DNA of 64,000 bases, from IMG/VR virus record IMGVR_UViG_3300036795_000133, positions 60,996 through 124,995 of that record. The stretch is one strand, 5' to 3'. The notes below the pieces were generated by a model. That model saw only the letters and a program-made list of their open reading frames with translations, ran no database searches and was not told where the DNA came from. Shown here one piece after another: positions 31,167 to 48,861 of the stretch; position 1 is the stretch's first letter, and each line of letters starts with the position of its first letter. This stretch comes from a virus. The position numbers were made by a program, and so were the translations under genes.

Positions 31167-31190
31167 CGGAATTCCTGTGCATACGCCTCG

Positions 31191-31219: not shown

Positions 31220-31266
31220 GTGCTCATCGACGTGCTGTTCCCCCGCGCCTCACAAGGAGCCCAGCC

Positions 31267-32317: not shown

Positions 32318-32642
32318 CGCGGTTTCCCTCACCGAGCTTGTCTCCGTCCTGGGCGGCATCGCGGCCACCTGCGTTGTCCCCTTCGCCCTCGCCAGGCGCC
32401 GGTCGGCCGACAACCAGGCCGCGACCGCGGTCCGCAACTGGGCCGAGCTCAACGAGGCGCTGCAGGCGGAAATCCGCCGGGTCACCAGGGAGCTTGAGCG
32501 GCAGCGCACCGACTACCAGTCCCAGCTCAACGACCTGCGGGGAGATTACCAGTCTCAGCTCGACGGGGCCCGCCGGAGGATCACCGAGCTGGAAGCCGAG
32601 GTCGCCGCCCTGCAGCGGGCACTGCGGGGGGCGGGACCTTGA
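32310..32642 (+). CDS. TM plus coiled-coil protein, holin/spanin-like
   Basis: 110 aa with GTG start. One TM near the start (LVSVLGGIAATCVVPFALA), then a long coiled coil containing two copies of DYQSQL. Typical one-TM phage lysis accessory architecture. Actinobacteria lack an outer membrane, so it is not an Rz pair. Confidence 0.65.
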   Translation: MPDAVSLTELVSVLGGIAATCVVPFALARRRSADNQAATAVRNWAELNEALQAEIRRVTRELERQRTDYQSQLNDLRGDYQSQLDGARRRITELEAEVAALQRALRGAGP

Positions 32643-32986
32643 CCGGCGGCGGGCTGCTGCTGCTGATGCTGCTCGTCTCCTGGACGTCGCTGGTGCTCCA
32701 GGCGGCGGCGGCACTCCACCTGTGGCTACAGCGGGCCTCCAGTACCGCCGAGAGGCTCGCCGGGCACGGCTACGTCCGCACCGCCGCCTGCCGGGTCCTG
32801 GCCGCCGCCGTCTACTCTGCCGTGGCGCTGCTGGCCGTGGCCGGCGTCCGCATACCGGGTGCGGGGACGCTCGGCCCGGAGGCCCTTGTCGTATTCACGG
32901 CGGTCCAGGGGATCTGGCTCGCCAACTCGGCGCTGGACATCAGGGTCCGGAGCAGGCTCGCACAGGAGGAGGAAAGCGAGAAATGA
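32639..32986 (+). CDS. Membrane protein in lysis cassette (115 aa)
   Basis: TTG start in an overlap. Hydrophobic segments LLLLMLLVSWTSLVLQAAAA, AAVYSAVALLAVAGV and ALVVFTAVQGIWLANS, basic C-terminus. Three TMs; holin candidate. Confidence 0.65.
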   Translation: MTGGGLLLLMLLVSWTSLVLQAAAALHLWLQRASSTAERLAGHGYVRTAACRVLAAAVYSAVALLAVAGVRIPGAGTLGPEALVVFTAVQGIWLANSALDIRVRSRLAQEEESEK

Positions 32987-33005
32987 TCACCTTCGGGAGG
33001 TGCAC

Positions 33006-33758
33006 GTGACACTCAGCATGCCGGACTCTATTTACCCGGCGAACATGCCGAAGGGATACGGCCAGTACCTCGCCTACGTTGACGGTGAGCGATCCAAGGA
33101 CGCCGATGCCGTCCGGTCCATGTTCGCCGGGGCGCGCATCCTCACCCTTACCGTGCTCGGCGGGAACGCCGTCGCCGACGGGTGCGACATGGAACCCGGC
33201 GACCTCTCGCCCGCGTCGGCCGCGGCGTGGCTGCACGGGCGGATCCGGGCAGGGCAGGTGCGGCCGGTACTGTACGCGAGCCGCGACAACGTGCCCGGGG
33301 TACTCAGCGCCATGGCCGGGCTCGGCGTCTCACGGCAGCAGGTACGGATCCTGTCGGCCCACTACGACGGCGAGCATGTCTGCTCGCCCCGGGCGTGCGG
33401 CTGGATGCTGACCGCGGACGGCACGCAATGGAGTGACAGTTTCCCAGGCGTCGGCGGGTCCAGGATTGACATGTCCCTGCTCGCCGACGACTTCTTCTCT
33501 ACCGGCTCTACCAGTCCTACCCAACTCAACTGGACGGAGACGATTGTGCAGCAGCTACCTGAGCTCAGGCAGGGCGCGACCGGGACGGCCGTGCGCACCG
33601 TCCAGGGCCTGTGCGCGGCGCGAGGCCATGCGGTGACCGTGGACGGCTCGTTCGGCCCGGCGACTCTAGCCGCGGTCAAGGCCGCTCAGGCAGCGGGGCG
33701 GGTGACCCAGGACGGCGTAGTCGGCCCTGTGACCTGGGGTGTCCTGCTCGGCGTCTAG
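33006..33758 (+). CDS. Endolysin: DUF1906-like glycosidase plus peptidoglycan-binding domain
   Basis: 250 aa, GTG 33006 behind GGGAGG. Residues 1-165 resemble a TIM-barrel DUF1906/GH25-type fold (YLAYVDGERSKDADAV, CDMEPGDLSPASAAAW, VRPVLYASRD, CSPRACGW, DGTQWSDSF). Residues 178-250 are a PG_binding_1 domain (LRQGATGTAVRTVQG, VDGSFGPATLAAVKAAQ, GVVGPVTWGVLLG). No signal peptide, so it needs a holin for export. Hydrolyses host peptidoglycan at the end of infection. Confidence 0.85.
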   Translation: MTLSMPDSIYPANMPKGYGQYLAYVDGERSKDADAVRSMFAGARILTLTVLGGNAVADGCDMEPGDLSPASAAAWLHGRIRAGQVRPVLYASRDNVPGVLSAMAGLGVSRQQVRILSAHYDGEHVCSPRACGWMLTADGTQWSDSFPGVGGSRIDMSLLADDFFSTGSTSPTQLNWTETIVQQLPELRQGATGTAVRTVQGLCAARGHAVTVDGSFGPATLAAVKAAQAAGRVTQDGVVGPVTWGVLLGV

Positions 33759-33779
33759 GGAAGAGAAAGAAGACCAGTC

Positions 33780-34943
33780 ATGGGCGTAAGCCTTTCGCTC
33801 AGCCTCAGCCCGGCCTCAGGCGTCTTGCCGGGGCAGGTGGTAACGGCGGTCTACACGGTCTCGGGAGACAACCCGGTCCCCGCCGCGACCGTCGCCACGA
33901 CTAGCGGCGAGGTCACGGTCGGCGGGACTGAGTACGAGGAGGTCACCACGATCTCGTCGCTCTCCGTCCCTGCTGCGCCGGTGACTTACTCGACTCCAGT
34001 GTGCAGCGGGCTCAGATTCGCCCAGACAGGCCAGCCGAACACCTTCACTGCCGTGGCCGGGGCCAGTTTCGGGAGCGTGGTGTCGGGATCCGTCATCGTC
34101 AAGGGAACAACCTACTCCGCGACCGCCACCCTCTCGGCGGGGACGCCTGTAACGCCTCCGCCGTCCGGAACGGTCCCGTACCCGGCTGCCCTGGCGACGG
34201 GACACACGCTGCTTAACCAGTACCTGCCCGCCGACCTGTACTCGTGGCGCTTCATGCCGGGCACGGCTAGCACTCCAGTCACCAACGGATCTGGCGTGAC
34301 CGAGAACCCGAATAGCCCCCGCAACGTCTCCGTCACCACCGACGGCGGCCTCAGCGTCCTGAAGCTCGCGGTCACCAGCACCGCCGATTGCGGTGTCATC
34401 CAGTCGCCGGGCACGTACCCGACCTCGAGCGGCGTTATCGAGGCCCTGGTCAAGTTCTCCGGGTTCACGAACGCGAGCGGTCACTTCTTCAGTGCGTGGA
34501 GCTCATTCTGGTTGTACGGGGCCGATTGGCCGGCTGGGGGTGAGGTTGACGCCGTGGAAACCCAGTACGGCAACAGCTTCGTCTCCTACCACTACGGGTC
34601 CGGGAGCAGCAGCGAAGCCACGACCGATCCGTGGATCTACCCGGCCAAGACGGTTCAGCTTCAGCCGAAGAACAGCACGACCGCCCCGGCTGCGCCGAAC
34701 ATCGTTCCTGACCAGTGGACTCACGTCACGCTCGCGTTCGGCAAGGACGCAGCGGGCGACTTCAAGTGCGACGTGTACTACGAGGGCACGCTGTACTGCA
34801 CGATCGCCGGCCCGTTCGTCACAGGGCAGCCGATGCTCGTGACGGCGGGCACCAGCTTCGGGGGTGCCGTACTCGGATCCGCTCAGACGCCTTACGACCA
34901 GCCTGGCAACGTCGCGATCCAGTACATCCGGGTGTTCAGTTAG
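33780..34943 (+). CDS. GH16-like glycosidase with Ig-like N-terminal domain
   Basis: 387 aa. Residues 1-120 are a beta-sandwich (SLSPASGVLPGQVVTAVYTV, SVIVKGTTYSATATLS). The rest is a concanavalin-like domain with the GH16 active-site run E-x-D-x-x-E (GGEVDAVETQYG, near residue 255), and DQWTHVTLAFGKD toward the end. Known GH16 enzymes cut beta-1,3/1,4-glucans, agar or chitin-linked sugars. It could strip a host surface polymer during adsorption or lysis. No signal peptide. Confidence 0.75.
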   Translation: MGVSLSLSLSPASGVLPGQVVTAVYTVSGDNPVPAATVATTSGEVTVGGTEYEEVTTISSLSVPAAPVTYSTPVCSGLRFAQTGQPNTFTAVAGASFGSVVSGSVIVKGTTYSATATLSAGTPVTPPPSGTVPYPAALATGHTLLNQYLPADLYSWRFMPGTASTPVTNGSGVTENPNSPRNVSVTTDGGLSVLKLAVTSTADCGVIQSPGTYPTSSGVIEALVKFSGFTNASGHFFSAWSSFWLYGADWPAGGEVDAVETQYGNSFVSYHYGSGSSSEATTDPWIYPAKTVQLQPKNSTTAPAAPNIVPDQWTHVTLAFGKDAAGDFKCDVYYEGTLYCTIAGPFVTGQPMLVTAGTSFGGAVLGSAQTPYDQPGNVAIQYIRVFS

Positions 34944-34958
34944 CACGGCAGGCGCTTA

Positions 34959-35008
34959 GCAACGCGAGAGCCCGGCTCCCCTCCTTCGGGGCCGGGCTCT
35001 CGCGTTGC
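34959..35008 (+). terminator. Strong intrinsic terminator of the lysis cassette
   Basis: 18-bp perfect inverted repeat (34959-34976 and 34991-35008, arm GCAACGCGAGAGCCCGGC) with a TCCCCTCCTTCGGG loop, 15 nt after the GH16 stop. No clear U-tract. It also faces the end of the transfer operon at 35017, so it may act in both directions. Confidence 0.85.
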
Positions 35009-35016
35009 GCGGGGTT

Positions 35017-35169
35017 TCAGGGCCGGCGCGACCGGGGCGCGGAAGTCTCCGCGTGCCAGCGGCGGCGGAGGTCCTTCGGGGGGACGGTAAGGCTCGCCTG
35101 GAAGCACAGGTAGGCCGAGCCCGCGATGAGCGCGGCGACGATGGCGCCTCCGATGATGGCGAACAGCAT
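35017..35169 (-). CDS. Small membrane protein (50 aa)
   Basis: ATG 35169 with GAAGGAA upstream. MLFAIIGGAIVAALIAGSAY is a TM/signal segment, then SLTVPPKDLRRRWHAE. Last gene of the leftward transfer operon. Function unknown. Confidence 0.6.
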   Translation of the reverse strand: MLFAIIGGAIVAALIAGSAYLCFQASLTVPPKDLRRRWHAETSAPRSRRP

Positions 35170-35220
35170 CCGGGATTCCTTCCGTAAACGATCTTGATGT
35201 TCCGCCCCGGTCCGCGTCGC

Positions 35221-36168
35221 TCAGGAGCGGTCTTCGCCCCGGTCCCCGCTGGCGGTCCCGGTCCGGTCCTCAGGGCGGTCCGCCTCATCCTCGGCGGGGC
35301 GGTCCGGACCCAGGCGGCGGCGCAGCTTGCGGCCGTAGCCCTCGCTGACGCCCAGTTGGCGCGCGAGTTCCGCGCCGCTCATTGTCAGGTCCGTGGCCAG
35401 CAGCTTCAGTGCGCGCGCCTCAAGTTCAACGTCGTCCTCGGGAGCAGTCTCGGTGCTGGACCGGGGGGCGGTCCCGGGCCGCGCAGGAGCGGTCCTGGAC
35501 CGCCGCGCGGGACCGCCCAGCTTCCGCTCTAGGACCGCCGTCTTCGCGGCTGCCTTCTCCGCATCGGACCGGGCAATGGCGAGGGCCTCCGCAGCGTCCG
35601 CGAGAGCCTGGTCGCGCGCCTCAATCTCGGTGCCTGCCCGCGCCCGCAGGTCGCTCATCGCGGCCTGGTGCGCGGCGTTATCACGTTCCCGCGAGGACCG
35701 CTCCGCGTCCGCCGCGGCGAGCAGTTCCGCCTCCCTCCGCGCGACCGCGGCAACGGCCTGCGCGGCGGACGGCCCGTTCATGATGAAGTACGCGGCAAGC
35801 AGTTCCGCCCCGTCGAGGAGCGCGCCGAACAGCAGCGAGAAGTGCGGCGGGGCGGCAGCCAGGACCACGTCCCCGGTGGCGCTCGCTGACAGGAACATCG
35901 CGGCGCCCATGATCAGGTACGCCCCGGCCTTCGCGGGCCAGGGCGCGTCCCGCCACTCGGCGACGATCTCCAGGACGAGTACCGCGATCAGGAGCGGCGC
36001 GACCCCGTACAGCACGGCCAGTTCCCAGGGCATGTGGCCGAACTTGACCGAGTGGTAAACCTGGAACGCCATGGTGGTGCTGCCCATGACGACGGTGACG
36101 ATCCACGCTGAGGTCCGGGCACGGCGCAGCGGGGCGCCTGCGGCTTCATCTGATCCCATGTCGGACAT
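35221..36168 (-). CDS. DUF2637/SpdB-like membrane protein with C-terminal HTH
   Basis: 315 aa, ATG 36168. Four TMs between residues 20 and 135 (TSAWIVTVVMGSTTMAFQV, WELAVLYGVAPLLIAVLV, AGAYLIMGAAMFLSASA, LLFGALLDGAELLAAYFI) match the DUF2637 topology of actinomycete plasmid-spread proteins. A coiled-coil stretch of about 100 residues, a Pro/Thr linker and a terminal HTH (LTMSGAELARQLGVSEGYG) follow. SpdB-like proteins help DNA move between cells of the mycelium. The added HTH suggests DNA binding. Confidence 0.7.
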   Translation of the reverse strand: MSDMGSDEAAGAPLRRARTSAWIVTVVMGSTTMAFQVYHSVKFGHMPWELAVLYGVAPLLIAVLVLEIVAEWRDAPWPAKAGAYLIMGAAMFLSASATGDVVLAAAPPHFSLLFGALLDGAELLAAYFIMNGPSAAQAVAAVARREAELLAAADAERSSRERDNAAHQAAMSDLRARAGTEIEARDQALADAAEALAIARSDAEKAAAKTAVLERKLGGPARRSRTAPARPGTAPRSSTETAPEDDVELEARALKLLATDLTMSGAELARQLGVSEGYGRKLRRRLGPDRPAEDEADRPEDRTGTASGDRGEDRS

Positions 36169-36204
36169 CGTGACGCCTTCCTTGATCGTTCTCAGGGATT
36201 CGGG

Positions 36205-36238
36205 GCGACCGCCCGGCCCGGGGTAGCCGGGCGGTCGC
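36205..36238 (-). terminator. Hairpin between mIHF and the SpdB-like gene
   Basis: 12-bp perfect arms GCGACCGCCCGG (36205-36216) and CCGGGCGGTCGC (36227-36238) around a 10-nt loop. Lies 13 nt after the mIHF stop on the minus strand; it could end or attenuate the operon. Confidence 0.7.
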
Positions 36239-36250
36239 GTTCTGGGGGGT

Positions 36251-36577
36251 TCAGGCGGCGGCAGGGTCGGAGAACTCCGCCTCGAGCGCGGCCCGCTGGT
36301 TGGCACCGAGGCCGCGCAGCCTGCGCGCCTGGTCGATGCCGAGGCGGGCCATGATCTGCCTCGCGCGGACCTTGCCGACACCGGGCATCGCCTCGAGGAC
36401 CGCGGTGACCTTCATCTTTCCGATGGTGTCGTTCCCGCCCGCCTGGGCGAGGACCGCGGGCAGGGTTGTCGTGCCGTTCTTCAGGCAGGCCTTCGTGCCT
36501 GCGCGGGCAGAACGGGCCGCCTTCGCCTTCTCGAGGGAGGCGGCCCGCTGCTCGGGGGTCATGGGTGGTAGTGGCAT
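36251..36577 (-). CDS. ihf: Actinobacterial integration host factor (mIHF)
   Basis: 108 aa; ATG 36577 with AGGAGGAACC directly before it. PMTPEQRAASLEKAKAARSA, IGKMKVTAVLEAMPGVGKV and RARQIMARLGIDQARRLRGLG match mIHF, which binds DNA by the helix-two-turn-helix (GVGKVRARQIM). mIHF is needed for phage L5 integration and bends DNA. A copy on an element beside a translocase may help assemble DNA complexes at transfer or recombination sites. Length and motifs are complete. Confidence 0.9.
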   Translation of the reverse strand: MPLPPMTPEQRAASLEKAKAARSARAGTKACLKNGTTTLPAVLAQAGGNDTIGKMKVTAVLEAMPGVGKVRARQIMARLGIDQARRLRGLGANQRAALEAEFSDPAAA

Positions 36578-36625
36578 TGGTTCCTCCTGTTTGAACTGCG
36601 ATTCATCACTGTGAGTAGTTGTTTT

Positions 36626-36759
36626 CTTGAGCGGGAAGGGGCGCTCAAGCTTGAGTGGGGTCTTGAGCGTGGCTTGAGCGGATCCTTTGAGTGCCGCTTA
36701 AGCTTCGTCGCCCCTACGCGCGGGCGGGCGCGCGCGGGCGCGCGCGAGGCCCGCTCAAG
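36626..36759. repeat. 8-bp iteron cluster, candidate clt/TRS site
   Basis: Copies of CTTGAGCG at 36626, 36662 and 36673; CGCTCAAG at 36642 and 36752; variants CTTGAGTG at 36650, TTTGAGTG at 36686 and CGCTTAAG at 36695. They lie in both orientations within 134 bp, immediately after the translocase stop. A GC-alternating tract spans about 36717-36748. Streptomyces TraB proteins recognise 8-bp repeats at a clt locus near tra, so this is a good candidate. Confidence 0.65.
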
Positions 36760-36770
36760 GATGGCACTCG

Positions 36771-38870
36771 TCACTGAGTGTCGCCTTCCCCCGGGGGAGG
36801 GGTCAGCATCCAGCGAGCGGCGGCCCGTTCGCCGACGACGTAGGCGGCGCCCTTGCCGCGCAGGTTCTCCAGCCAGGTCCGGGCCGTCCACTTCTTCACG
36901 TCGAACCTCGTCGCGACCGCGCTGATCGTCGTGCCCCCCTCGAGCATCTCCAGCAGCGGGCCGAGAGCCTCGCCGGGCACCTGCGCCGCCTCGCCGACCT
37001 GCCGCCACCCCTCAGCCGTGAGCGCCGCCAGTGCCTCCGGGTCCGCCTGAGGGGGAGCGGGCCTCGCCCGGCCCTCCTCGATCGTCCTGCGCGCGGTGCC
37101 GAGCTTCGCGGCGAGGGCGTCGAGCCGCCCCCGTTCCCTGTCGTCCATTTCCGTCTCCCACCTCTGGAGGGGGTCTTCGCCCTCGAGCACGGTTCCCTTC
37201 GCCGCGGGGACAGCCGTCTCCGTGCCGTCACCCGGTTCCTGCGCCGGCACGGCGGACGGGCCCGCGGTCATACCCGGCCCGCCGTCCGTCTCCGCCGGGT
37301 TCTCGCCTTGGCCGCGCGCCCACCTGGCGAACACCTCGTCCTTCAGCAGAGCCTCGTAAGCCTCGCCGAGGTACTCCGCGCAGGCACCGGAAATCTCCGG
37401 CTGGGCGAAGGCGCGCTCCTGGGCGAGCTGCTCCACGAAGGCACCGTGCCCGGCCGCGTTCGGGTGGAAGACCCATGTCCGGCCGACCTGCAGGCCGCCG
37501 CCGAGTCGCTCGACCTTCCACACGCCCGGCTTGCCCTCGCCGTAAGTGGACATGTCAGGGCCGGCGAGGCTGCCCGCGTGGCGGGCCTCGTTCGAGTTCT
37601 GAACCAGGCCGGTGCAGCGCACGTTGTCCTGGGACCGGGCCTTGGGGTCGGTGTACTCGCGGGTGTTCCGCTGGCCGAGGTGCACGTAGCCGACGCCGTG
37701 CGAGCGGCCCTTGGTGACGATCGTGGCGATGTCCTCCCGCAGGGGCCCCAGCGCGCTGTCGCTCTCGTCGTTGAAGATGATGATCGCCGGGTGCGCGGGC
37801 GAGGGGGCGTACTGGCCGCGCTTGAAGTTCTTCGTCCGCCACTCGATGACAGCGGCGATAACCTTCAGGACAGCCGCGGCGCGAGACTTCTGAGCCGGGC
37901 CGTAGGCGGTCAGCCAGCAGGCCGGACCCCAGCTCTCCACGTCCTCATGGCCCTTGACGGACAGGTTGAGGTGCACCGCCAGGGCGTCGTCGCAGGCGGT
38001 CACGTGCTCGAAGAGGTCGTCCTCCAGAACGCCTTTGCCTCCCCCGGAATTCGCGGTGACGCTGACGCGCCTGGCGCCGTTCTCGTCGTACAGGGGGACG
38101 GTCAGCGGGTCGCCGGTCTCCGGGTCCTGGCCGATAACCGCCTCGTCGAGGATGCTACGGGCCTCCGGCAGCCGGATCTCCGGCTCCTCGCACACGAGCG
38201 GGTGCAGGAGCACGCCGGCCCACGGGTCGATGCGGCGGACGGAGATCCGGATCCGCCCGGCGAGGTGGTGGCCCATCACCCGGACACGGGACAGGGGAAG
38301 GTTCTCCGCCTCCGCGATTACCTCCTCGAGGGCACGGCCGACAAAATGGGACGCGCGCTTGCCGGTGCCCTTGGTGCTGACCGTGTAAAGCTCGCCGAGG
38401 CGCGTCTGCCGGAACTCGAGCAGGTGACTGCCGCCGAGGTGCCAGTTACGGGAGCGGCCGAGCCAGTCCGCGCGGGCGTCGCGCCACTCGCGGGCGGCGG
38501 TGACGGCGTCGTGCCTGTGCGCGGCCCTGGACGCGGCGAAGGCGAAGACAACCCAGGCGGCGGTCAGGGGAACAGCGGGCCACCAGGCAAGCGGGCCGAA
38601 GCGGTCAGCGGCGGTCAGCCAGGCGCCGCCGATCAGGACCCACCACGGCAGCGAGTCTGCGACGCCGTCCCGCCGTCCCGCGGTACCCCACGCGAGGGCG
38701 ACGGCCAGGGCGGTGGCGCCCCCGAGGGGGAGCACCGCGTGGACGCCGGCGAGCCGCATGACCTCAGCGGCCGTCCACGTCACCGCGGCGGCGGGCAGCA
38801 CGGCGGATGCCAGGCGCTCCGCCGGGGCACGGCGCAGGTCCGGCACCTCCGTGCCCCAGTCGCCGTTCAC
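36771..38870 (-). CDS. FtsK/SpoIIIE/TraB-type DNA translocase
   Basis: 699 aa. Four or so N-terminal TMs (two blocks, about residues 20-70 and 75-115), then an ATPase with Walker A NSGGGKGVLEDDLF, Walker B HPAIIIFNDESD, and the KAR/arginine region DPKARSQDNVRCTG. The last 90 residues form a winged-helix domain (MLEGGTTISAVATRFDVKKW), the position of the DNA-recognition gamma domain in FtsK and TraB. A predicted inner-membrane pump for double-stranded DNA, as used in Streptomyces conjugation. Overlaps the upstream gene by 4 nt. Confidence 0.85.
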   Translation of the reverse strand: MNGDWGTEVPDLRRAPAERLASAVLPAAAVTWTAAEVMRLAGVHAVLPLGGATALAVALAWGTAGRRDGVADSLPWWVLIGGAWLTAADRFGPLAWWPAVPLTAAWVVFAFAASRAAHRHDAVTAAREWRDARADWLGRSRNWHLGGSHLLEFRQTRLGELYTVSTKGTGKRASHFVGRALEEVIAEAENLPLSRVRVMGHHLAGRIRISVRRIDPWAGVLLHPLVCEEPEIRLPEARSILDEAVIGQDPETGDPLTVPLYDENGARRVSVTANSGGGKGVLEDDLFEHVTACDDALAVHLNLSVKGHEDVESWGPACWLTAYGPAQKSRAAAVLKVIAAVIEWRTKNFKRGQYAPSPAHPAIIIFNDESDSALGPLREDIATIVTKGRSHGVGYVHLGQRNTREYTDPKARSQDNVRCTGLVQNSNEARHAGSLAGPDMSTYGEGKPGVWKVERLGGGLQVGRTWVFHPNAAGHGAFVEQLAQERAFAQPEISGACAEYLGEAYEALLKDEVFARWARGQGENPAETDGGPGMTAGPSAVPAQEPGDGTETAVPAAKGTVLEGEDPLQRWETEMDDRERGRLDALAAKLGTARRTIEEGRARPAPPQADPEALAALTAEGWRQVGEAAQVPGEALGPLLEMLEGGTTISAVATRFDVKKWTARTWLENLRGKGAAYVVGERAAARWMLTPPPGEGDTQ

Positions 38871-39790
38871 GCCGCCTGCCCGCCCTGCGGCGCGCCGCCG
38901 TCGCCGAACCAGAAGCGGTTGGCGGGCAGGGGGGCGCCGTCGGCCGCCTCGCGGAGGTCGTCGTGGATCAGGTGGTACCGCTTGCTGACCTGCGCCGCAT
39001 GGGAGGCCAGCTCGGCGATGTCGTCGGCGAACTCGTAGTGGGCGGCGACGTAGGCCGGGTGGAGGCCCGCGCCGCCCTCGCCCAGGTTCTCCGTGCGGGC
39101 CATGACCGCCTCAGCCCAGGTGAGGATCCCGGCGGCCTCCCCGTCCATGTGCTCGCACAGGTCGTCTTCGTTCTCCGGGTCGAACTCCGCCGCCTCGCCC
39201 GCCACGGCCGCCCACGTCCGGGGAACGATGACCCCAGCCGCCTCGAGAGCCACCGCCACGTCGGCGGGGGCGGGGGCGTCGCCGAGCGCCGGGTCAGCGT
39301 GGATGGACGGAACGCCGGGGACCGAGCGGCGCCACGGGGGGACGCCGGGGGTGGCGCGAACGGGCCGGGGGGCGGTGCCCGGTGCGGCGGGCGGCAGGGG
39401 CTCGCGGCGCATGAGGCCTGCGAGCTCGCGCACGCCTTCGCGGGCATTCCGCAGGGCGTCCCGCACCTGGTCGCATAGCAGCGAAAGGATCAGGCGCGTC
39501 GCCCCGGCCTTCCCGAACTTAGGGTTCCTGGCAGCATGCCGCCACACAGACCAGCACCGCACGCCCACAACCGCCAGCGGTCCCGCCAGCAGAGACGCGT
39601 CAACCAGTACCGGCAGAACGCCGAGCACGGTCAGCGGGACCATCGCAGCGGAGATAAGGATCAGCAGGCCAGTCCAGCTGCGCGCGTCCCGCCACCCGCC
39701 CGTCCGGGCCATCTGGGCGATACCCAGGATGATGACGCCCGAGAAGAAGGCGAAGGCCCCCCACATGGCAAGGGTGAGAATCGTTCCCAT
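38867..39790 (-). CDS. Membrane protein of the transfer operon (307 aa)
   Basis: Two or three TMs at the start (ILTLAMWGAFAFFSGVIIL, WTGLLILISAAMVPLTVLG, DASLLAGPLAVVGVRCW), a basic linker, then a soluble C-terminal half with NEDDLCEHMDGEAAG. Precedes the translocase with a 4-nt overlap and may anchor or dock it. No family recognised. Confidence 0.7.
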   Translation of the reverse strand: MGTILTLAMWGAFAFFSGVIILGIAQMARTGGWRDARSWTGLLILISAAMVPLTVLGVLPVLVDASLLAGPLAVVGVRCWSVWRHAARNPKFGKAGATRLILSLLCDQVRDALRNAREGVRELAGLMRREPLPPAAPGTAPRPVRATPGVPPWRRSVPGVPSIHADPALGDAPAPADVAVALEAAGVIVPRTWAAVAGEAAEFDPENEDDLCEHMDGEAAGILTWAEAVMARTENLGEGGAGLHPAYVAAHYEFADDIAELASHAAQVSKRYHLIHDDLREAADGAPLPANRFWFGDGGAPQGGQAA

Positions 39791-39791
39791 G

Positions 39792-40319
39792 TCAGCACAC
39801 CTCTCCGTAACCGTTGCCGCTCCACGTCAGCAACTCGCCTGTGAAGCTAGAACCGCAGATACCCGCGCCGGAGCGGAGCGCCGCAACGATGAGCGGGTAG
39901 CCGCCGAGCAGCGTCGCGACGGTCGCCTGCACTCCCTCGGCGGCTGACGGGTAACTCCGGACCCCGGCACCGTTGAACACCGATGCGCCGGGCGCAGGCT
40001 CAGTGGTGTCGAGGGGGTTGTTCGCCGCGACGGGCGGCCACGGGGTCTCGTGCCGCACCCATGCCTCCGCTGATCCGACGTTCGCTGCCGTGACGGGGGC
40101 ACCGAGGCCGGCGAAGACCGCAGACATGAACGCCGTCTCGCTTCCCCCGGTCACGGCTGTAACGTGCGCGGGCCGCGCCTTCGCGTGCGCGGAGGTGACG
40201 GCGTGCGCCCCGGCCGAAACTGCCAGGACCGTGCCCAGGGCGAGGCCGGCAACTGCGCCCGCGTCGCTGCGGCGCCTGTACGGGGAGCGGTAGCGGCGGG
40301 TGCCGCGGAACGCGGTCAT
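39792..40319 (-). CDS. Lysozyme-like/transglycosylase-like secreted protein
   Basis: 175 aa. Basic start, TM anchor VAGLALGTVLAVSAGAHAV, then a compact domain AAEGVQATVATLLGGYPLIV preceded by NNPLDTTEPAPG and VRSYPSAAEG. This pattern (N-P-L-x-T-T, R-x-Y-P, G-V-x-A-T-x-x-T-L) is found in small actinobacterial phage lysozyme-like proteins, from memory. Likely cuts peptidoglycan near the transfer pore. Confidence in the enzymatic class is moderate. Confidence 0.65.
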   Translation of the reverse strand: MTAFRGTRRYRSPYRRRSDAGAVAGLALGTVLAVSAGAHAVTSAHAKARPAHVTAVTGGSETAFMSAVFAGLGAPVTAANVGSAEAWVRHETPWPPVAANNPLDTTEPAPGASVFNGAGVRSYPSAAEGVQATVATLLGGYPLIVAALRSGAGICGSSFTGELLTWSGNGYGEVC

Positions 40320-40528
40320 CAGCGCCACCTGTTCCTGCCGAATATGCCGATGATCAGGTAGGCGGCGGGTATGCCGATGATCGTGACGGCGAACGCGGTG
40401 ACGGGGCTGGCCGGCAGGATCCGGTGGCCGCCGGAGATGAGGCCTGTGGTGACGCCGGCGACGCTGATGCGCCACATGACGATCCCGAGGGCGACCGCGA
40501 GGACGGTGACGGTAGTCCGCTCTTTCAC
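40319..40528 (-). CDS. Two-TM membrane protein (69 aa)
   Basis: ERTTVTVLAVALGIVMWRI and VTAFAVTIIGIPAAYLIIG; GRNRWR tail. ATG overlaps the next start. Probably a small scaffold for the transfer machinery. Confidence 0.65.
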   Translation of the reverse strand: MKERTTVTVLAVALGIVMWRISVAGVTTGLISGGHRILPASPVTAFAVTIIGIPAAYLIIGIFGRNRWR

Positions 40529-40533
40529 GAGGC

Positions 40534-41130
40534 TTACGCCCCCTTCCGGCTAGGTGCAGGGTCGGTGAAGCCGACGACAGCATTCAGCCCGGTGCGGGGG
40601 GAGGCTGCAGGTCCGTAGCCTTCCTGCCGGACGTACGTGCCCGCACCGAAGGCGTCGATCATCGTGTGCCTTGCCGGGTCGGCGACGATCCCCACGTGCC
40701 CCGGTGCCGTGGGGGTGCCGTCGGACCCGGCGAAGAACACAAGGTCGCCCGCGACCGGGCTGGTGACGTGCCGCTCGCTGGCCCACTGCTGCTGCGAGGT
40801 CCGCTCGATCGAGATGCCGTCCGCCGCGTACGCCTCCATCGCCAGGCCCGAGCAGTCCATGCCCGCGTCGCTCGTCCCGCCCCAGAGGTAGGGCACCTTG
40901 CCGACCTTGGAGCGGGCGAAGGCGACCACGGCGGAGGCGGCGGCGTTTGCTGTAGCCGGGGCAGTGCCGTGGTGAGCGTGGTGGGTGACTGCCTTCGTCC
41001 CGGCGCCCGCCCCGGCAAGCAGGACCGCACCCGCGATCACGACCGGGAGCACACCGCTGCCGTCCTTGCGGAACTTGTACGGATAACGGATCCGGTAGCG
41101 GCGCGGGAGCGGGTAGCGGTAGGCGGTCAT
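40534..41130 (-). CDS. NlpC/P60 peptidoglycan endopeptidase
   Basis: 198 aa. N-terminal TM anchor (GVLPVVIAGAVLLAGAGAG), then the NlpC/P60 core: GKVPYLWGGTSDAGMDCSGLAM (catalytic Cys), GDLVFFAGSDGTPTAPGHVGI (catalytic His) and a later ARHTMIDAFGAG. Cuts peptide stems of peptidoglycan. In a transfer operon such enzymes open the wall for the translocation channel. Confidence 0.9.
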   Translation of the reverse strand: MTAYRYPLPRRYRIRYPYKFRKDGSGVLPVVIAGAVLLAGAGAGTKAVTHHAHHGTAPATANAAASAVVAFARSKVGKVPYLWGGTSDAGMDCSGLAMEAYAADGISIERTSQQQWASERHVTSPVAGDLVFFAGSDGTPTAPGHVGIVADPARHTMIDAFGAGTYVRQEGYGPAASPRTGLNAVVGFTDPAPSRKGA

Positions 41131-41360
41131 CGGCGGTACCTCCGGCCTTTCCGGCTCACCGCGCGCCGCTCCGGCCCGCTCGTCAGGTGCCACGTCCCGC
41201 AGGCGCACGGGTACGACCTGAGCCCCGTAGCCGCTGTCGCGCCCGCCTCCTGCTCCGTGCTGAACCCCCGCTTCCACGGGGTAAGGCATTCGGACCTCCC
41301 CGCCGTCCGGGGATCCCGGTTCTGCTGCCGCAGCCTCTGGTGACGCCCCCGCGCGGTCAT
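41127..41360 (-). CDS. Cysteine-containing basic protein (77 aa)
   Basis: ATG 41360. RHQRLRQQNRDPRTAGRSEC then a Cys-His set SYPCACGTWHLTSGPER, a motif like small zinc proteins of actinomycete elements. Overlaps the next gene by 4 nt. Confidence 0.6.
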   Translation of the reverse strand: MTARGRHQRLRQQNRDPRTAGRSECLTPWKRGFSTEQEAGATAATGLRSYPCACGTWHLTSGPERRAVSRKGRRYRR

Positions 41361-41617
41361 CACGCGTTCCTCTCGTTGCGCATCCGCCGCCAGCCGGAAA
41401 CGAGTAGGCAGAGGGTGTAGATAGCGGCGACGACGGTGAACAGCGCGACCGCGTTGCCCGTGGGCGCTGCGGCGACCTGCGCGTAGTCGCCGGGCAGGTC
41501 GCGGGTCAGGTGCAGCGGCGTAGCCGGGCCGATCGACAGGGTCGCCGTCCACGACCACACGGCGGTCACGGCCAGAGACAGGACTGTGCCTGCGGTCAGG
41601 GCGGCCCGGGTAGTCAT
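41360..41617 (-). CDS. Membrane protein (85 aa)
   Basis: Two TMs, LTAGTVLSLAVTAVWSWTA and AVALFTVVAAIYTLCLLVSG, with a basic tail. Function unknown. Start shares one base with its neighbour stop. Confidence 0.65.
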   Translation of the reverse strand: MTTRAALTAGTVLSLAVTAVWSWTATLSIGPATPLHLTRDLPGDYAQVAAAPTGNAVALFTVVAAIYTLCLLVSGWRRMRNERNA

Positions 41618-41856
41618 CAGGACCTCCGTCGTGCGTGCGCTGGACGCAGGGCGTCGGCAATCAGTTCTCCCGGGTAGCCGATGGCGGCGAGGCGGCGCGA
41701 CTCGGCGTCCTGCGCCTGCATTGCGCGGATCAGGGCGCGCTCGGCTTTCGGGTCGGGGTGCCCGGTGCGCTCGATGATGGCGTGCGCCCTGGCCCCGAGG
41801 CGCCAGTAGGCGTCAGCCAGTCCGCGCAGCTTCTTGTACGGATCCCGGGCGGTCAT
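41617..41856 (-). CDS. Hypothetical helical protein (79 aa)
   Basis: Start MTARDPYKKLRGLADAYWRL, helices including AERALIRAMQAQDAESRRLA. No family. Shares a base with its neighbours. Confidence 0.65.
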   Translation of the reverse strand: MTARDPYKKLRGLADAYWRLGARAHAIIERTGHPDPKAERALIRAMQAQDAESRRLAAIGYPGELIADALRPAHARRRS

Positions 41857-42128
41857 CAGGACCGCCCCTGCCGTTCGCGCCAAGCGCGCTCGGTACGGTC
41901 GAGGCGGTAGCTGTACGTCCCGGTGGCACGCTTGCGCTCAACCCGGCACCAGATCTCGCAGGCGGCGATGAACGCCAGGAAGGCAACGCCAGTGGCGCCG
42001 AGGCCCGCCCAGTTCCGCGTGTCCGCGAAGTGCAGGCCGAACGCGAGGACCATGATGCCCGTCACTACGCCGAGCGGGAGGCCGACGACTGCCGGGTGCC
42101 GCGAGGCGAGCCCGGGGGCGCGCTTCAC
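41856..42128 (-). CDS. Two-TM membrane protein (90 aa)
   Basis: GTG 42128 (GTGA overlap). AVVGLPLGVVTGIMVLAFGL and GLGATGVAFLAFIAACEIW, Arg-rich tail. Function unknown. Confidence 0.65.
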   Translation of the reverse strand: MKRAPGLASRHPAVVGLPLGVVTGIMVLAFGLHFADTRNWAGLGATGVAFLAFIAACEIWCRVERKRATGTYSYRLDRTERAWRERQGRS

Positions 42129-42658
42129 CGCCCGCTCCCGAACGGGTAGCCGCTGGCGCGCGGCGCTGGCTTCGGCTTGCTTGCGCCCCAGGTGCGCAGC
42201 AGCAGCACGACGGTCAGCAGGGTCAGCACGGCAAGGGCGCCGTACAGCTCCATCGTGCTGTGCTGGTGCGCCCGCGTCTCGCGGTGCCAGGTCCTGATGA
42301 TCCCCGGGAGGCGCTTCCCGAAGTAGATGTCGGCCGCGACGACTGCCGTGACGAAGAGGTGCTTCACGTGCTTCAAGGTTTTCCTCCGGTGATGACGGGG
42401 CGCGGTCGGGTGACCTGGCCCGCTGGTGCGGCTCCCGGGGGGCGCCGCCGTTGCAGTTGAACGGCCGCCCTGCATCTGCCTGCGGATCCTCGCGGCCTCC
42501 CGCGTGACGTGCGCCAGCTCCCTCTCGACCCCGGCCCGGTCGTAGTGGGCGGTGTAGCGGTCGGGGCGCATCACGCCGCTTGGGTAGCTGAGCGCTTCCC
42601 GCATCAGCCCGGCGCGCTCCTCCAGGCCTGCCAGCCGGTGCTCCTCTGCGCGGCTCAT
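42125..42658 (-). CDS. Membrane protein with coiled N-terminus (177 aa)
   Basis: Helical/basic N-terminal 95 residues (AGVERELAHVTREAARIRRQ), then two TMs (KHLFVTAVVAADIYFGK and LYGALAVLTLLTVVLLLRT). Overlaps both neighbours by 4 nt. Function unknown. Confidence 0.65.
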   Translation of the reverse strand: MSRAEEHRLAGLEERAGLMREALSYPSGVMRPDRYTAHYDRAGVERELAHVTREAARIRRQMQGGRSTATAAPPGSRTSGPGHPTAPRHHRRKTLKHVKHLFVTAVVAADIYFGKRLPGIIRTWHRETRAHQHSTMELYGALAVLTLLTVVLLLRTWGASKPKPAPRASGYPFGSGR

Positions 42659-43092
42659 GCGACTCGCTCCGCCAGGGCGGCGCGCACTCTCTCGCCGCGT
42701 TTGCGCAGCAGTACAAGGTGGCGTTCGTGCGCCCGCTGCTTCCGGTCCTGGCGCCGGAAGTACAACTCGGCCGCCTCGGCGAGGATCACGGCAACCGGGC
42801 GCACGGGGACGCGCTCGCGCTCCTCGCCCAGTTCCCTCTCCGAGAGCCCCGCCCAGGTGCCGTGCAGTTCCGGCTCGGCGAGAGCGTGCCGCAGGCAGTC
42901 GGCTCTCACAGGGCAGCCCAGGCAGACGCGGCGCGCCTGGTCGGTCGCCTCAGCGGCACCGTCGCCCTCGGCGAAGAACAGCTCAGGGTCCGTGTACTGG
43001 CAGTCGGCGAGCCGCGTCCAGTCCCAGGGCGTCTCCGGTTCCAGCAGGGGGACGGCCGCGCCGGGGCTCCAGGCGACAGCGCGGGCGCTCAT
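42655..43092 (-). CDS. WhiB-family regulator (second copy)
   Basis: 145 aa. WTRLADCQYTDPELFF, then ARRVCLGCPVRADCLRHAL gives the four cysteines (C..CxxC..C) that hold a 4Fe-4S cluster, and HGTWAGLSERELG replaces the usual G(V/I)WGG turn. The C-terminal 60 residues are basic and helical, a DNA/sigma-binding extension. WhiB proteins regulate with sigma factor. ATG overlaps the upstream WhiB stop. Confidence 0.9.
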   Translation of the reverse strand: MSARAVAWSPGAAVPLLEPETPWDWTRLADCQYTDPELFFAEGDGAAEATDQARRVCLGCPVRADCLRHALAEPELHGTWAGLSERELGEERERVPVRPVAVILAEAAELYFRRQDRKQRAHERHLVLLRKRGERVRAALAERVA

Positions 43093-43358
43093 GCCGCACC
43101 GCTCGTCAGGCTCGGGAGCGCGGCGTTCCGCTCGTCGGGGGTCGTCCCGCCCCAGACACCCCACGCCTGGCGGGTGGAGACGGCGTAGTCGCGGCACGGG
43201 CGGCGGACCGGGCAGGTGCCACAGGTCGCTATCGCGGTGGCGGCCTGCGCCTCGTACGCGTCGGTACCGGGCGCGGCGAGCGGGAAGAAGTCGTCGCCCG
43301 GCAGGTCAAGGCAGGCGGCGCGGTCCTGCCACCCGAGTGCGGTCGCTGAGGCGCTCAC
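43089..43358 (-). CDS. WhiB-family regulator (first copy)
   Basis: 89 aa, GTG 43358. WQDRAACLDLPGDDFFPLA, then ATCGTCPVRRPCRDYAV and WGVWGGTTPDERNA. All four cysteines and the canonical GVWGG motif are present. Adjacent to a divergent second WhiB; tandem WhiB pairs occur on actinomycete plasmids and phages. Candidate regulators of the transfer operon. Confidence 0.92.
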   Translation of the reverse strand: MSASATALGWQDRAACLDLPGDDFFPLAAPGTDAYEAQAATAIATCGTCPVRRPCRDYAVSTRQAWGVWGGTTPDERNAALPSLTSGAA

Positions 43359-43552
43359 GACACACCCACCAGGGCGCGCCACTTGCGGTTCGCCTTCTGC
43401 ATGGCACCGCGCCCGCTGAAGGTCTCGACGAACTTCCCTGTGACACAGTCGTAGACCCCGTAGGACCCGCCGCCGAGGGGCGACACCGCGTACCGCGCCA
43501 TCAGCCGGTCTTGTTCCGACCCGCGCCGCGCATCGCCCTTGCGTCCGGTCAT
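43355..43552 (-). CDS. Hypothetical small protein (65 aa)
   Basis: TGRKGDARRGSEQDRLMARY then YGVYDCVTGKFVETFSGRG, a beta hairpin pattern. ATGA overlap. Function unknown. Confidence 0.65.
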   Translation of the reverse strand: MTGRKGDARRGSEQDRLMARYAVSPLGGGSYGVYDCVTGKFVETFSGRGAMQKANRKWRALVGVS

Positions 43553-43707
43553 GGCTGAACCTCCGGCGGGTACATCTGGTGGGAGCGCTGGTCAACCGGG
43601 CAGGTGCCCCGAGCCCCTCCGCCGGGAAACGGCACCAGGATCGCGTCAGAGTGTTCCGGGCAGTAACAGGCAGGGGCCGGGCGGACCGGGGTCAGGAGGG
43701 CGGTCAT
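43549..43707 (-). CDS. Small cysteine protein (52 aa)
   Basis: ALLTPVRPAPACYCPEHSDA and GARGTCPVDQRSH: CxCPEH and C-P-V-D with H, a zinc-knuckle outline. Start overlaps neighbour by 4 nt. Function unknown. Confidence 0.55.
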   Translation of the reverse strand: MTALLTPVRPAPACYCPEHSDAILVPFPGGGARGTCPVDQRSHQMYPPEVQP

Positions 43708-43922
43708 GGCGTGGCCTCCGCACAGTCGGGCCTCCCGCGCAGGGGCGCAGGGCTGAGCGTCGCGACCGGGCAGGGCGCGGAGGGCGACGGGCTGAACATC
43801 GTGGGCACGTAGACCGCGGGCTGCGAGTGCCCGTGGCGGACCACGAGGATGACGGCTGCGATCACGAGGCCGATGGCGAGCCCTATCGCGGCACCGCGGA
43901 TCAGGTCGGCGGCGGCGGTCAT
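43704..43922 (-). CDS. Single-pass membrane protein (72 aa)
   Basis: TM GAAIGLAIGLVIAAVILVVRH near the N-terminus; Ser/Pro-rich tail. Function unknown; ATGA overlap. Confidence 0.65.
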   Translation of the reverse strand: MTAAADLIRGAAIGLAIGLVIAAVILVVRHGHSQPAVYVPTMFSPSPSAPCPVATLSPAPLRGRPDCAEATP

Positions 43923-44260
43923 GACGAGATCTCCGCGTAGTTGAGGCAGTGGACGTAGACGCGCGCGATGGGCCGGCTACTGCCGGTTCCGCTTACGGTC
44001 CCGGTCCCGGTGATCTCAAGCTGGGCGTCCGGACCGTAGAACTCCGCCGCCTTCAGCAGGGCAGCGGACCGCATCTCGCTGATGCTGTCGCCGCGGACTG
44101 TGGCGTCGAAGAAGTCCGGGCCCTCGGTGCGGCGCGCGCCGATCTCGTCCAGCGCGGCGTGAAGGCCGGCGGCGAACGAGGTGGAGCGCCTGTCCTGCCC
44201 CCAGCCGTTGGCGAGGTCACGGAGCACCCGGTAGTCGGACTGGGCGAGGGAGGAGGTCAT
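43919..44260 (-). CDS. Hypothetical protein (113 aa)
   Basis: Helical first half (DYRVLRDLANGWGQDRRST), then beta strands LEITGTGTVSGTGSSRPIAR and VYVHCLNYAEI. No family. Coupled on both sides. Confidence 0.65.
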   Translation of the reverse strand: MTSSLAQSDYRVLRDLANGWGQDRRSTSFAAGLHAALDEIGARRTEGPDFFDATVRGDSISEMRSAALLKAAEFYGPDAQLEITGTGTVSGTGSSRPIARVYVHCLNYAEISS

Positions 44261-44463
44261 GCCGTCACCTCGGATACCCGGCTCGCGGCGGCGAGGATGA
44301 CGCCGAGCGCCTCAGCCTCCGGGCTGCCGATGGGGAACGCCTCGGATGTGGCGAGGGACGCCTCAAGCAGCGTCGTCTCGGCGCGGTCCGCGTCACCCGA
44401 CTCGGCGAGCAGGACGGCCAGCGAGGTGAGGTTGAGGGCGTCGTACAGGGCCGGGGGATTCAC
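44257..44463 (-). CDS. Helical hypothetical protein (68 aa)
   Basis: GTG 44463 (GTGA overlap). NPPALYDALNLTSLAVLLAE, then ADRAETTLLEASLATSEAFP. Helix-rich; function unknown. Confidence 0.65.
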   Translation of the reverse strand: MNPPALYDALNLTSLAVLLAESGDADRAETTLLEASLATSEAFPIGSPEAEALGVILAAASRVSEVTA

Positions 44464-44750
44464 GACCGCTCCCCGGCGGTGCGCTGGGCGGGGACGGGAG
44501 CCCCGTCGAGGTCGAGGAGGAAACGGCACTTCGCCTGCGTCAGCCCCTTGTCCTCAAGGTCGGCCATCGCCCCGGCTAGCTCGGTGAGGAGCATGTCCCC
44601 TTCGACCGCGTCGGCGCGGATGTCGGCGGAGGTGATGCCCTCCGCGATGCAGTGCATGGCGAACTTCCGCGCCGACCCGGGGAGCTTGAAGCCGGCACGG
44701 ACATGGGACTGGTAAGTGGCTGCGGCTGGGAGGTCGGCTACTGTGGTCAC
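44460..44750 (-). CDS. Hypothetical protein (96 aa)
   Basis: GTG start overlapping the zinc gene stop. TTVADLPAAATYQSHVRAGF, then EGDMLLTELAGAMADLEDKG. Function unknown. Confidence 0.65.
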   Translation of the reverse strand: MTTVADLPAAATYQSHVRAGFKLPGSARKFAMHCIAEGITSADIRADAVEGDMLLTELAGAMADLEDKGLTQAKCRFLLDLDGAPVPAQRTAGERS

Positions 44751-44908
44751 GGACTTTCTCCAATTCCGGTTGGGATGGTCCGGGCCGTCGCGGCGTGAGA
44801 TGTCGCGGCGGCCATTTGCGTTCTCGGGGACCGGCGGCGGGAGCAGTCACAGGACTGCCCGGCCCAGAGGACCTTCCCGCAGTTGGTGCAGACCCTGGTC
44901 TGGTTCAT
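44747..44908 (-). CDS. Zinc-knuckle protein (53 aa)
   Basis: RVCTNCGKVLWAGQSCDCSR gives CxxC...C-x-C. ATG overlaps the RHH stop (ATGA). Function unknown. Confidence 0.6.
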   Translation of the reverse strand: MNQTRVCTNCGKVLWAGQSCDCSRRRSPRTQMAAATSHAATARTIPTGIGESP

Positions 44909-45111
44909 GCCGCTGCTTCTGCCTCAAGCGCTTCGCCGGCGGCCTGTCCGTTCCCGAGACGGGAGGCCAGTTCGTCGGCGGGCGGTAGCGCCTGGTCGAG
45001 GAGACCGTCAAGCACATGGCTCAGCGGCTGGCCCTTGAGCAGGGCCAGCATGCGCAACCGGAGGTCAACCGGACGTGTGATCCGGCTGGACAGCGGCACG
45101 TCACACGCCAT
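44905..45111 (-). CDS. RHH-like regulator, first gene of transfer operon
   Basis: 68 aa; ATG 45111 with GGAAGGACC upstream. SSRITRPVDLRLRMLALLKG followed by PLSHVLDGLLDQALPPADEL fits an Arc/ParG-type ribbon-helix-helix. First gene after the TTGACA promoter, so it may autoregulate the operon. Confidence 0.65.
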   Translation of the reverse strand: MACDVPLSSRITRPVDLRLRMLALLKGQPLSHVLDGLLDQALPPADELASRLGNGQAAGEALEAEAAA

Positions 45112-45154
45112 GAATTCGGTCCTTCCAGCGGTCTTGATTACTGCATTGCAGACA

Positions 45155-45184
45155 ACATAAGCACAACTCATGTATATATGTCAA
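45155..45184 (-). promoter_or_regulatory. Promoter of the transfer operon
   Basis: -35 TTGACA (45184-45179), 18-nt spacer, -10 TTATGT (45160-45155). About 44 nt upstream of the RHH gene start. The best consensus -35 noticed in the window and the start of an about 10-kb leftward operon. Confidence 0.7.
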
Positions 45185-45274
45185 GGCACGCGGAACCCCT
45201 GGTGAGGGACACGCCGGACCGGTCTAGTTGACCTGTACTTACCTAGATCACTTGCCGCCCTCTAGGCTGTGTAC

Positions 45275-45616
45275 ATGGCAGGTGAGGACTCCTGGAAGTA
45301 CGAGCGCATAGCAGGCGACTTGCGCGGCGGCATCAGGAGCGGCAAGTACGCGCCGGGCTCGCGCCTGCCGTCCAAGAGCAAACTCGCAGCGCGGTACGAC
45401 GTATCCGACGGCCCTGTAAACGAGGCGCTGAAGGTGTTGCGCGGCGAAGGGCTGATCGAGACCCGGCAGGGCAGCGGGATCTTCGTCTGCGACCCGCTGC
45501 CGGAAGTGGCGCTGTCGGAGTACGAGACTGTGATGGGGCGTATCGACGGCCTGGCCGAGGAGGTCAGGCAGCTACGCGGGGAAGTGGCAGCGCTGAGGCA
45601 GGCGAGGGGGGCGTGA
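45275..45616 (+). CDS. GntR-family (YtrA-like) regulator, leaderless
   Basis: 113 aa. ATG 45275 lies 6 nt after TAGGCT (45263-45268); a GTG at 45269 is the alternative. Winged helix: YERIAGDLRGGIRSGKYAPG, SRLPSKSKLAARYDVSDG and LRGEGLIETRQGSGIFV. No effector domain; the C-terminus is a coiled helix (LAEEVRQLRGEVAALRQA) for dimerisation. Divergent from the transfer operon, so it probably controls that promoter. Confidence 0.85.
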   Translation: MAGEDSWKYERIAGDLRGGIRSGKYAPGSRLPSKSKLAARYDVSDGPVNEALKVLRGEGLIETRQGSGIFVCDPLPEVALSEYETVMGRIDGLAEEVRQLRGEVAALRQARGA

Positions 45617-48819: not shown

Positions 48820-48861
48820 CATAAAGGGCGGAATGTCGGTGCCCGCGCGTAGCGTGGCCGC

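Follow-up and report, generated by a model that had tools for sequence, protein, structure and literature searches.

Virion genes and a putative TraB-type DNA transfer module on one circular element of a soil actinobacterial virus

Can one viral element carry both the genes for virions and a module for passing DNA from cell to cell? The question is raised by a stretch of 64,000 nucleotides (the window), positions 60,996-124,995 of the 124,995-bp IMG/VR record IMGVR_UViG_3300036795_000133 and so its second half, in which an initial annotation had reported phage packaging genes together with a full conjugal transfer operon, and had proposed a phage-plasmid or a transferable prophage. The remainder of the record was fetched too, and the full record is named G000 here; coordinates marked contig refer to it and the others to the window. 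Comparison records carry G-numbers (related or large records, with G002, 124,491 bp, as a relative) or L-numbers (further loci). The analysis suggested that G000 is probably an integrative tailed actinobacterial phage carrying what we infer to be a Streptomyces-type double-stranded DNA transfer module.

The two modules, phage and transfer, share a single element, as had been proposed, and this element, a soil actinobacterial virus, is circular. The first and last 127 bases of G000 are identical, giving a circle of 124,868 bp, and because 127 is a frequent assembly word length, the record looks circular or circularly permuted. G002 closes by the same 127-bp overlap and contains both modules in an order identical to that of G000; end overlaps of 110 bp and 69 bp were found in G005 and G004, respectively, and none in G001 and G003. 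A total of 211 genes covering 87% of G000 were called, among them the terminase, portal, major head protein and integrase genes of a tailed temperate phage (Caudoviricetes). The terminase, portal, Mu-F and endolysin genes reported for the window were confirmed by PHROG or Pfam matches (Table 1), and a tape-measure-like gene of 2,129 amino acids (aa) and more tail-like genes were assigned by position. From viral contigs, 44 terminase relatives were obtained, with identities of 47-89%, and the nearest cultured relatives were Streptomyces phage TurkishDelight (58%) and Actinoplanes phage phiAsp2 (52%).

A single tyrosine integrase was detected in G000 (contig 22948-24420), with no serine recombinase found in the record. 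Beside it lies the phage attachment site (attP; contig 22788-22845), which matches the last 58 nt, at the 3′ end, of tRNA-Ser(GCT). Of 296 genomes from the G019 class, 183 contain a match to the segment (E ≤ 0.001, best identity 93%), and ARAGORN calls tRNA-Ser(gct) at five of the six matching loci checked, the sixth (L126) being without a call. Attachment sites between separately integrated elements were looked for and not found, there being one integrase and no second copy of the segment in the contig at 15-20 nt. The combination of integrase and tRNA attachment site that characterizes actinomycete integrative and conjugative elements (AICEs) is thus present in G000, and no match to ParA (PF13614) was obtained in it, while G001 has one. 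Since the integrase and tRNA attP are present and no ParA was found, we consider G000 an integrative phage and not a classical phage-plasmid; the phage-plasmid in the strict sense was set aside on the same grounds, and of the two proposals, the transferable prophage fits the anatomy better. A circular contig with an intact attP is equally compatible with free phage DNA and with an extrachromosomal prophage. Outside the window, a candidate replication (initiator) gene was located at contig 3054-3995, with four exact GAAGGGTCCGG iterons inside its coding region; its G002 homologue likewise holds four, around 120721-120811, with a spacing of 22-35 bp in both phages. The candidate gene has no Pfam match, and no search aimed at RepSA, RepAM or Prim-pol was made.

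The gene described as FtsK/TraB (36771-38870) encodes a protein of 699 aa, in which N-terminal helices, an FtsK motor and a C-terminal winged-helix-like domain follow one another. Alone, it gave no match in Pfam, PHROG or NCBIfam, nor any as a direct query against plasmids, cultured phages and viral contigs, and its relatives were found via synteny and alignments. The assignment is backed by profile-profile comparison and fold. A three-member profile including the window protein aligned by hhalign with nine plasmid or phage translocases at Prob 99.0 and E 6.5e-18 over 443 columns, spanning the N-terminal region through the motor, and a profile of five phage translocases matched the solved sequences of YukB (2.2e-7) and FtsK (8.2e-5); the window-group profile against the single TraB of G001 was not significant. 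In a nine-sequence AlphaFold model with a predicted local distance difference test score (pLDDT) of 69 (an earlier five-sequence model with pLDDT 46 was not relied on), the protein is predicted to contain an FtsK-type motor with alpha and beta subdomains, with fold matches to FtsK (Z 23.4, 332 residues, root-mean-square deviation 3.9 Å) and TcpA (Z 21.8). The N-terminal helices are predicted, with low to middling pLDDT, between residues 15 and 118, and the winged helix, judged by the order of secondary structures, would comprise helices at 611-672 and strands at 676-689, with pLDDT mostly 80-92 over 630-689. A 24-row tree joined 10 translocases from phages with 9 from plasmids, apart from five chromosomal FtsK/EccC-like rows (100/99), with the phage proteins on several branches, of which those of G003 and ZL12 are long and uncertain.

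Directly 3′ of the translocase gene, G000 harbors an array that resembles the clt of Streptomyces. Six exact copies of CRCTCAAG start at 36626, 36642, 36650, 36662, 36673 and 36752, accompanied by two sites with one mismatch, and these six are among 19 copies in the contig; the array of G002 has six copies in 64 bp, also out of 19. Recognition of 8-bp clt repeats by TraB is established for Streptomyces plasmids (PMC4170104; statements on cited papers, here and below, refer to the available parts of their texts). A blind scan of all 8-mers ranked the array as the second-strongest cluster in both G000 and G002, behind the iterons, with log-scale scores of 9.5 in G000, 8.9 in G002 and 7.0 in G003, against a best cluster of 5.4 (G000) and 4.9 (G003) in 25 simulated genomes each. 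Three of 3109 other sequence windows score as high as the G000 array, whose repeats of about 8 bp 3′ of the gene suggest a putative cognate clt. As a positive control, the same scan recovered CCCGCACA for pJV1, matching its published clt of nine CCGCACA[C/G][C/G] copies (PMC3583192).

When a uniform test was applied, in which one 8-mer had to occur three or more times in the 220 bp 3′ of the gene (a 250-bp version was also made), arrays were detected at 9 of 12 phage TraB loci, usually with differing 8-mers: CGCTCAAG in G000, CACTCAAG in G002, CGCTCAAA in L143, AATGCGTG in L140, AACGTGCG in L141, CTGTCACA in L146, CCGTGGAA in G003, AGGTGTGA in G011 and, weakly, CCGGTCAC in L145, whose score is reached or exceeded in 13 of 436 other sequence windows. 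Arrays had been discovered in G000, G002 and G003, and six of the nine remaining loci were positive, one of them weak; these nine were viewed by eye before ranking. Four of nine plasmids (pFQ12, pSQ10, pJV1 and pRL1) passed the same test. G001 has three copies of TGTCAGACA, only over a 450-bp stretch. Near the end of G005, at contig 95-255, six copies of TGTCACAA form the strongest repeat cluster of any record. Among open-licence papers, no literature on clt-like arrays or TraB specificity in phages was found.

The winged-helix domain and the array might be matched to each other. The comparison covered seven proteins of the window's clade in 21 pairs, which are non-independent and make up a small sample. 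In the three pairs sharing hexamers of the CTCAA type, identity was higher in the winged helix than in the rest of the protein (G000-G002 0.71/0.52, G000-L143 0.55/0.42 and G002-L143 0.47/0.38), while G002-L088 (0.47/0.85) and L140-L141 (0.67/0.91) have different arrays and diverged winged helices with near-identical motors. Between G002 and L088, the synonymous divergence (dS) is 0.19 over residues 0-620 versus 0.73 past 620, as if the winged-helix domain and the array had been swapped together.

The module recurs at 12 distinct phage loci (G000, G002, L088, L140, L141, L143, L145, L146, G001, G003, G005 and G011; L142 and L143 encode the same protein and were counted once). It occupies the equivalent position in related phages, where the TraB proteins belong to several lineages. 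In the window's clade, WhiB, an NlpC-type hydrolase, a 307-aa protein and the translocase recur, usually with an SpdB-like gene next. G001 carries a different TraB at the matching locus, which matches NCBIfam plasmid_TraB (NF041214) at 2.9e-90, below the 800-bit cut-off, and clusters with those of pJV1, pCQ3 and pRL1 (100/100); neither it nor the G003 translocase has a match in cultured phages. Among the 18 terminase-family records searched, out of 44 loci, A9 matches five (G006 at 1.1e-5 only) and NF041214 adds G001, giving 6 of 18, and most of the negative records are fragments shorter than 65 kb. Over all 26 records searched, A9 matches 13, seven of which came via TraB itself; the terminase (phrog_2) is present in five of those seven.

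From these results, transfer might proceed as follows. The C-terminal winged helix would bind the array, and the translocase would assemble on circular phage DNA and pass this DNA on to the adjoining cell or hyphal compartment, assisted by the SpdB-like and peptidoglycan-hydrolase proteins; GntR and WhiB would control the module, and lytic growth would yield virions. The copy in the window's sub-lineage may be weakened, reliant on a partner motor or changed in role, with relatives keeping intact motors.

Several results weigh against a transfer module of this type. The fold comparison is too close to separate TraB from FtsK, TcpA or EssC; the window protein has no match to NF041214, and weak matches to this profile mean little because 13 of 14 control genomes also match it at E ≤ 1. 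No array was found by the 220-bp test at L088, G001 and G005, nor 3′ of the FtsK-like gene in any of three cultured phages (ZL12, Hiyaa and P1312), and pZL12 reportedly transfers. Two of the 18 other pairs (G000-L141 and L141-L143) also have a winged helix more conserved than the rest, and G002 and L140 share the hexamer GAGTGC without higher winged-helix identity. G004 (107,985 bp) contains no TraB-type gene and is a fair negative. Finally, all three members of the window's sub-clade have a Walker A motif lacking Ser/Thr, namely GGGKG in G000, GAGKD in G002 and GAGKG in L088, and the cassette genes of this sub-clade, neighbours included, have nonsynonymous to synonymous ratios (dN/dS) of about 0.5-0.8, compared with 0.19-0.29 in L140-L141.

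The last two points bear on a further explanation, that the motor is inactive in G000, G002 and L088, the protein either decaying or retained as a membrane protein that binds DNA and blocks or poisons rival TraB elements, a case of transfer interference. The longer Walker A strings are ANSGGGKG in the window, which departs from the intact GxxGxGK[ST], GIKGAGKD in G002 and GIKGAGKG in L088; the Walker B Asp is changed to Asn in G002, and GK[ST] is retained in nine relatives (L140, L141, L143, L145, L146, G001, G003, G005 and G011). Such losses and the raised dN/dS agree with an inactive motor; however, the raised ratio is not specific to the translocase gene because neighbouring genes share it, the frames are full length despite the degenerate P-loop (36771-38870 in the window, 26186-28258 in G002 and L088:8064-10124), the P-loop lysine is retained, and the arrays of G000 and G002 are among the strongest, with winged helices better conserved than the rest. 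We regard an inactive motor as possible but doubtful. Because its Walker A is degenerate, the window protein is filed as TraB-type or TraB-derived only, and not as TraB; with that degeneracy this copy may be unable to power transfer alone, while the TraB-type module as a kind looks functional. For the full conjugal transfer operon of the initial annotation the support is anatomical only, from the TraB-type translocase, the clt-like array, the SpdB-like gene and the divergent GntR gene, with the degenerate Walker A standing against it. The initial annotation mentions neither the array at 36626-36759 nor the degenerate P-loop nor the circular ends of the record.

Inteins were also encountered in these motors. 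The L146 translocase (L146:5308-8532) has one inserted exactly in its Walker A, and another in the Walker A of the G002 terminase (contig 48050-50818) is 36% identical to it, so that two different DNA motors are involved. The insertion site is the very residue lost from the degenerate P-loop of the window. A TraB-terminase fusion in L146, suggested by a 1074-aa frame that matched both, was ruled out, the shared part being the intein.

Alternatively, the translocase might act inside the cell, in segregation of the prophage or plasmid state, septum clearance or DNA handling before packaging, with the array as the loading site for that role. FtsK-like proteins of phages are usually annotated as segregation translocases, the authors of P1312 suggest DNA segregation, the FtsK and TraB folds are tied, and PHROGs places such translocases in the category moron/host takeover. 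Nevertheless, the tree groups the phage translocases with plasmid TraB and not with chromosomal FtsK, the SpdB-like, GntR and WhiB genes are co-located as on plasmids, and the array has the same position, 3′ of the gene, as the published clt of pJV1, so we judge an intracellular role unlikely. Still less probable is an ordinary phage accessory operon whose array has nothing to do with the translocase and serves a transcription factor or replication: though another strong, iteron-like cluster exists inside the candidate replication gene, the array is positioned after the translocase gene at 9 of 12 loci, which differ in motif, and shared motifs go with similar winged-helix domains. A chimeric assembly, or a prophage and an AICE lying side by side as two elements, is largely refuted and hardly credible, for though G000 is metagenomic, two independent records have 127-bp closed ends and the same gene order, module and terminase occur together in five of seven further viral records, and there is one integrase and one att segment.

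The remaining genes of the operon are presented in Table 1. The leftward run described as about 23 genes extends from 45111 to 35017 and contains 20 by our own gene caller. The TTGACA hexamer cited as its promoter lies at 45179-45184 on the minus strand, but the promoter scan there gave no -35/-10 pair. In the intergenic stretch that separates the GntR gene from the operon (45112-45274), ATGTATATATGT overlaps this hexamer and is a plausible GntR operator. The two WhiB, the NlpC/P60 and the mIHF-type genes all pass Pfam; the last of these is not general, with 0 of 18 relatives found by PF22525, yet one occurs in L088 by sequence. Of the less certain labels, the ribbon-helix-helix (RHH) gene has a G001 homologue and lacks a Pfam match, and the protein called lysozyme-like has no family match in Pfam, PHROG or NCBIfam and corresponds to part of an NlpC protein. 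The SpdB-like label is given by the usual SpdB layout only, and a profile comparison with DUF2637 proteins gave Prob 24. At L088:10293-10655, two tiny genes with GNVTGGNLVQ-type repeats lie between the translocase and the mIHF-type gene.

Table 1. Features of G000 discussed in the text, in window coordinates unless marked contig.
Feature	Position	Strand	Evidence or remark
Head maturation protease / morphogenesis protein	4136-6778	-	phrog_1752 2.9e-24
Mu-F-like head protein	7954-8595	-	PF04233 6.9e-8
Portal protein	11573-12943	-	phrog_113 2e-35; PF06074 (Portal_Mu) 4.6e-32
Terminase large subunit	16650-18341	-	phrog_2 3.8e-34; 44 viral loci
Terminase small subunit, likely	18313-18897	-	position and conservation; inferred label
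Endolysin with peptidoglycan-binding domain	33006-33758	+	phrog_2649 2.7e-11; PF01471 1.6e-9
Small membrane-like protein	35017-35169	-	similar one at L088 12571-12723 (by eye)
SpdB-like protein, 315 aa	35221-36168	-	layout: hydrophobic N-terminus, long middle, C-terminal helix-turn-helix-like end; homologues in G002, L088, G003
S13-like helix-two-turn-helix (H2TH) DNA-binding protein, mIHF type	36251-36562	-	PF22525 5.6e-31
clt-like array	36626-36759	.	six exact CRCTCAAG and two single-mismatch sites, directly 3′ of the traB-like gene
TraB-type (FtsK-fold) DNA translocase, 699 aa	36771-38870	-	profile comparison, fold, motifs
Conserved 307-aa protein directly upstream of traB	38867-39790	-	homologues in all TraB-clade contigs with the upstream side in view
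175-aa protein	39792-40319	-	matches C-terminal part of NlpC fusion protein G002_52
NlpC/P60 peptidoglycan hydrolase, hydrophobic N-terminal stretch	40534-41289	-	PF00877 2.4e-16; start uncertain (41130 or 41289)
Four small, mostly membrane-like genes	41360-42658	-	two with G002 homologues (77%, 46%)
WhiB family regulator	42655-43092	-	PF02467 1.2e-19
WhiB family regulator	43089-43358	-	PF02467 1.1e-18
Five small operon genes	43355-44750	-	gene caller
RHH-like small protein, first gene of the operon	44905-45111	-	79% to G001_80; no Pfam match
GntR-family regulator, divergent from the operon	45275-45616	+	PF00392 1.4e-19
Gp3-like protein, recombination directionality factor type	59140-60153	+	PF18897 9.4e-39
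Major head protein	contig 57654-58565		phrog_1650 1e-67

Other genes of G000 were also observed. Big tail-like proteins with many AALSGSGTLTA-type repeats are encoded at contig 29579-37759, with homologues in G001, G002 and G003. An RtcB RNA ligase gene (1.5e-108), followed by phosphoesterase-like and nucleotidyltransferase-like genes recognized by eye (contig 18282-20854), forms a possible RNA repair cluster. A TnpB-type protein (53844-54959; OrfB_IS605 and Cas12f1-like TNB domains), for which no transposase partner was noticed, has weaker homologues in G002 and G003, and a DUF5131 protein (62224-63234, 1.8e-79) has homologues in four of five other large records.

The general idea of phage and transfer genes on one element is already known, with pZL12 and Phi1207.3 as precedents and pSLE1 as a relative of pZL12. 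The plasmid-phage pZL12 (phage ZL12, GQ919031, 90,435 bp), whose conjugal transfer is reported to need a tra gene and its neighbours, likewise combines phage genes with an FtsK/TraB-type gene and has a GntR-family regulator upstream of the gene run; it is described as having its own replication, whereas G000 has an integrase and tRNA attP with no ParA found, and its TraB lies on another, long and unsure branch, with no array 3′ of the gene. The pSLE1 of Streptomyces leeuwenhoekii is a pZL12-like phage/plasmid hybrid with two putative integrases (PMC4487206), but differs in its size of 86.4 kb, its ParA/ParB and, as far as described, its phage family. In Streptococcus pyogenes, transfer of the prophage Phi1207.3 meets the definition of conjugation (PMC4260502), with the mechanism left unresolved there and the word "FtsK" absent from the available text. 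The TraB/clt systems of Streptomyces plasmids (pJV1, pIJ101 and pSVH1) and of AICEs share the FtsK-type translocase, 8-bp clt repeats, Spd proteins and GntR/Kor-type control (PMC4170104, PMC3218068), yet are without virion genes, while the window's motor has a degenerate Walker A. Cultured Thermobifida phage P1312 and Streptomyces phages Hiyaa, Keanu and Galactica have FtsK-like translocases related to that of G005, annotated as DNA segregation or translocase proteins, and in Hiyaa and P1312 the gene is followed by no array; the P1312 authors, as far as their available text goes, make no claim of conjugation. In a survey of phage-plasmids (PMC10879196), the words Streptomyces and FtsK do not occur. 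No integrative actinophage group with TraB-type modules, arrays and matching winged-helix domains was found in the open-licence literature.

Taken together, and tentatively, a widespread group of soil actinophages might spread both as virions and by TraB-type double-stranded DNA transfer, swapping translocase/array cassettes mutually and with plasmids, the winged helix matching its own clt, and a sub-branch including the window's phage might have lost motor catalysis and retained a DNA-binding shell to block rival TraB elements or borrow a motor; this combined scenario is conceivable, though we would not expect all of it to hold. DNA movement by phages and by conjugative elements is commonly viewed as two separate routes. 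If the module works, both routes are open to an entire group of integrative phages of at least 100 kb, and spread through the mycelium of filamentous hosts without lysis would be possible. The arrays and their winged-helix partners offer a cheap and direct handle on the evolution of transfer specificity, and the branch with degenerate motors raises the question of whether a dead translocase is kept by a phage as a weapon or a decoy.

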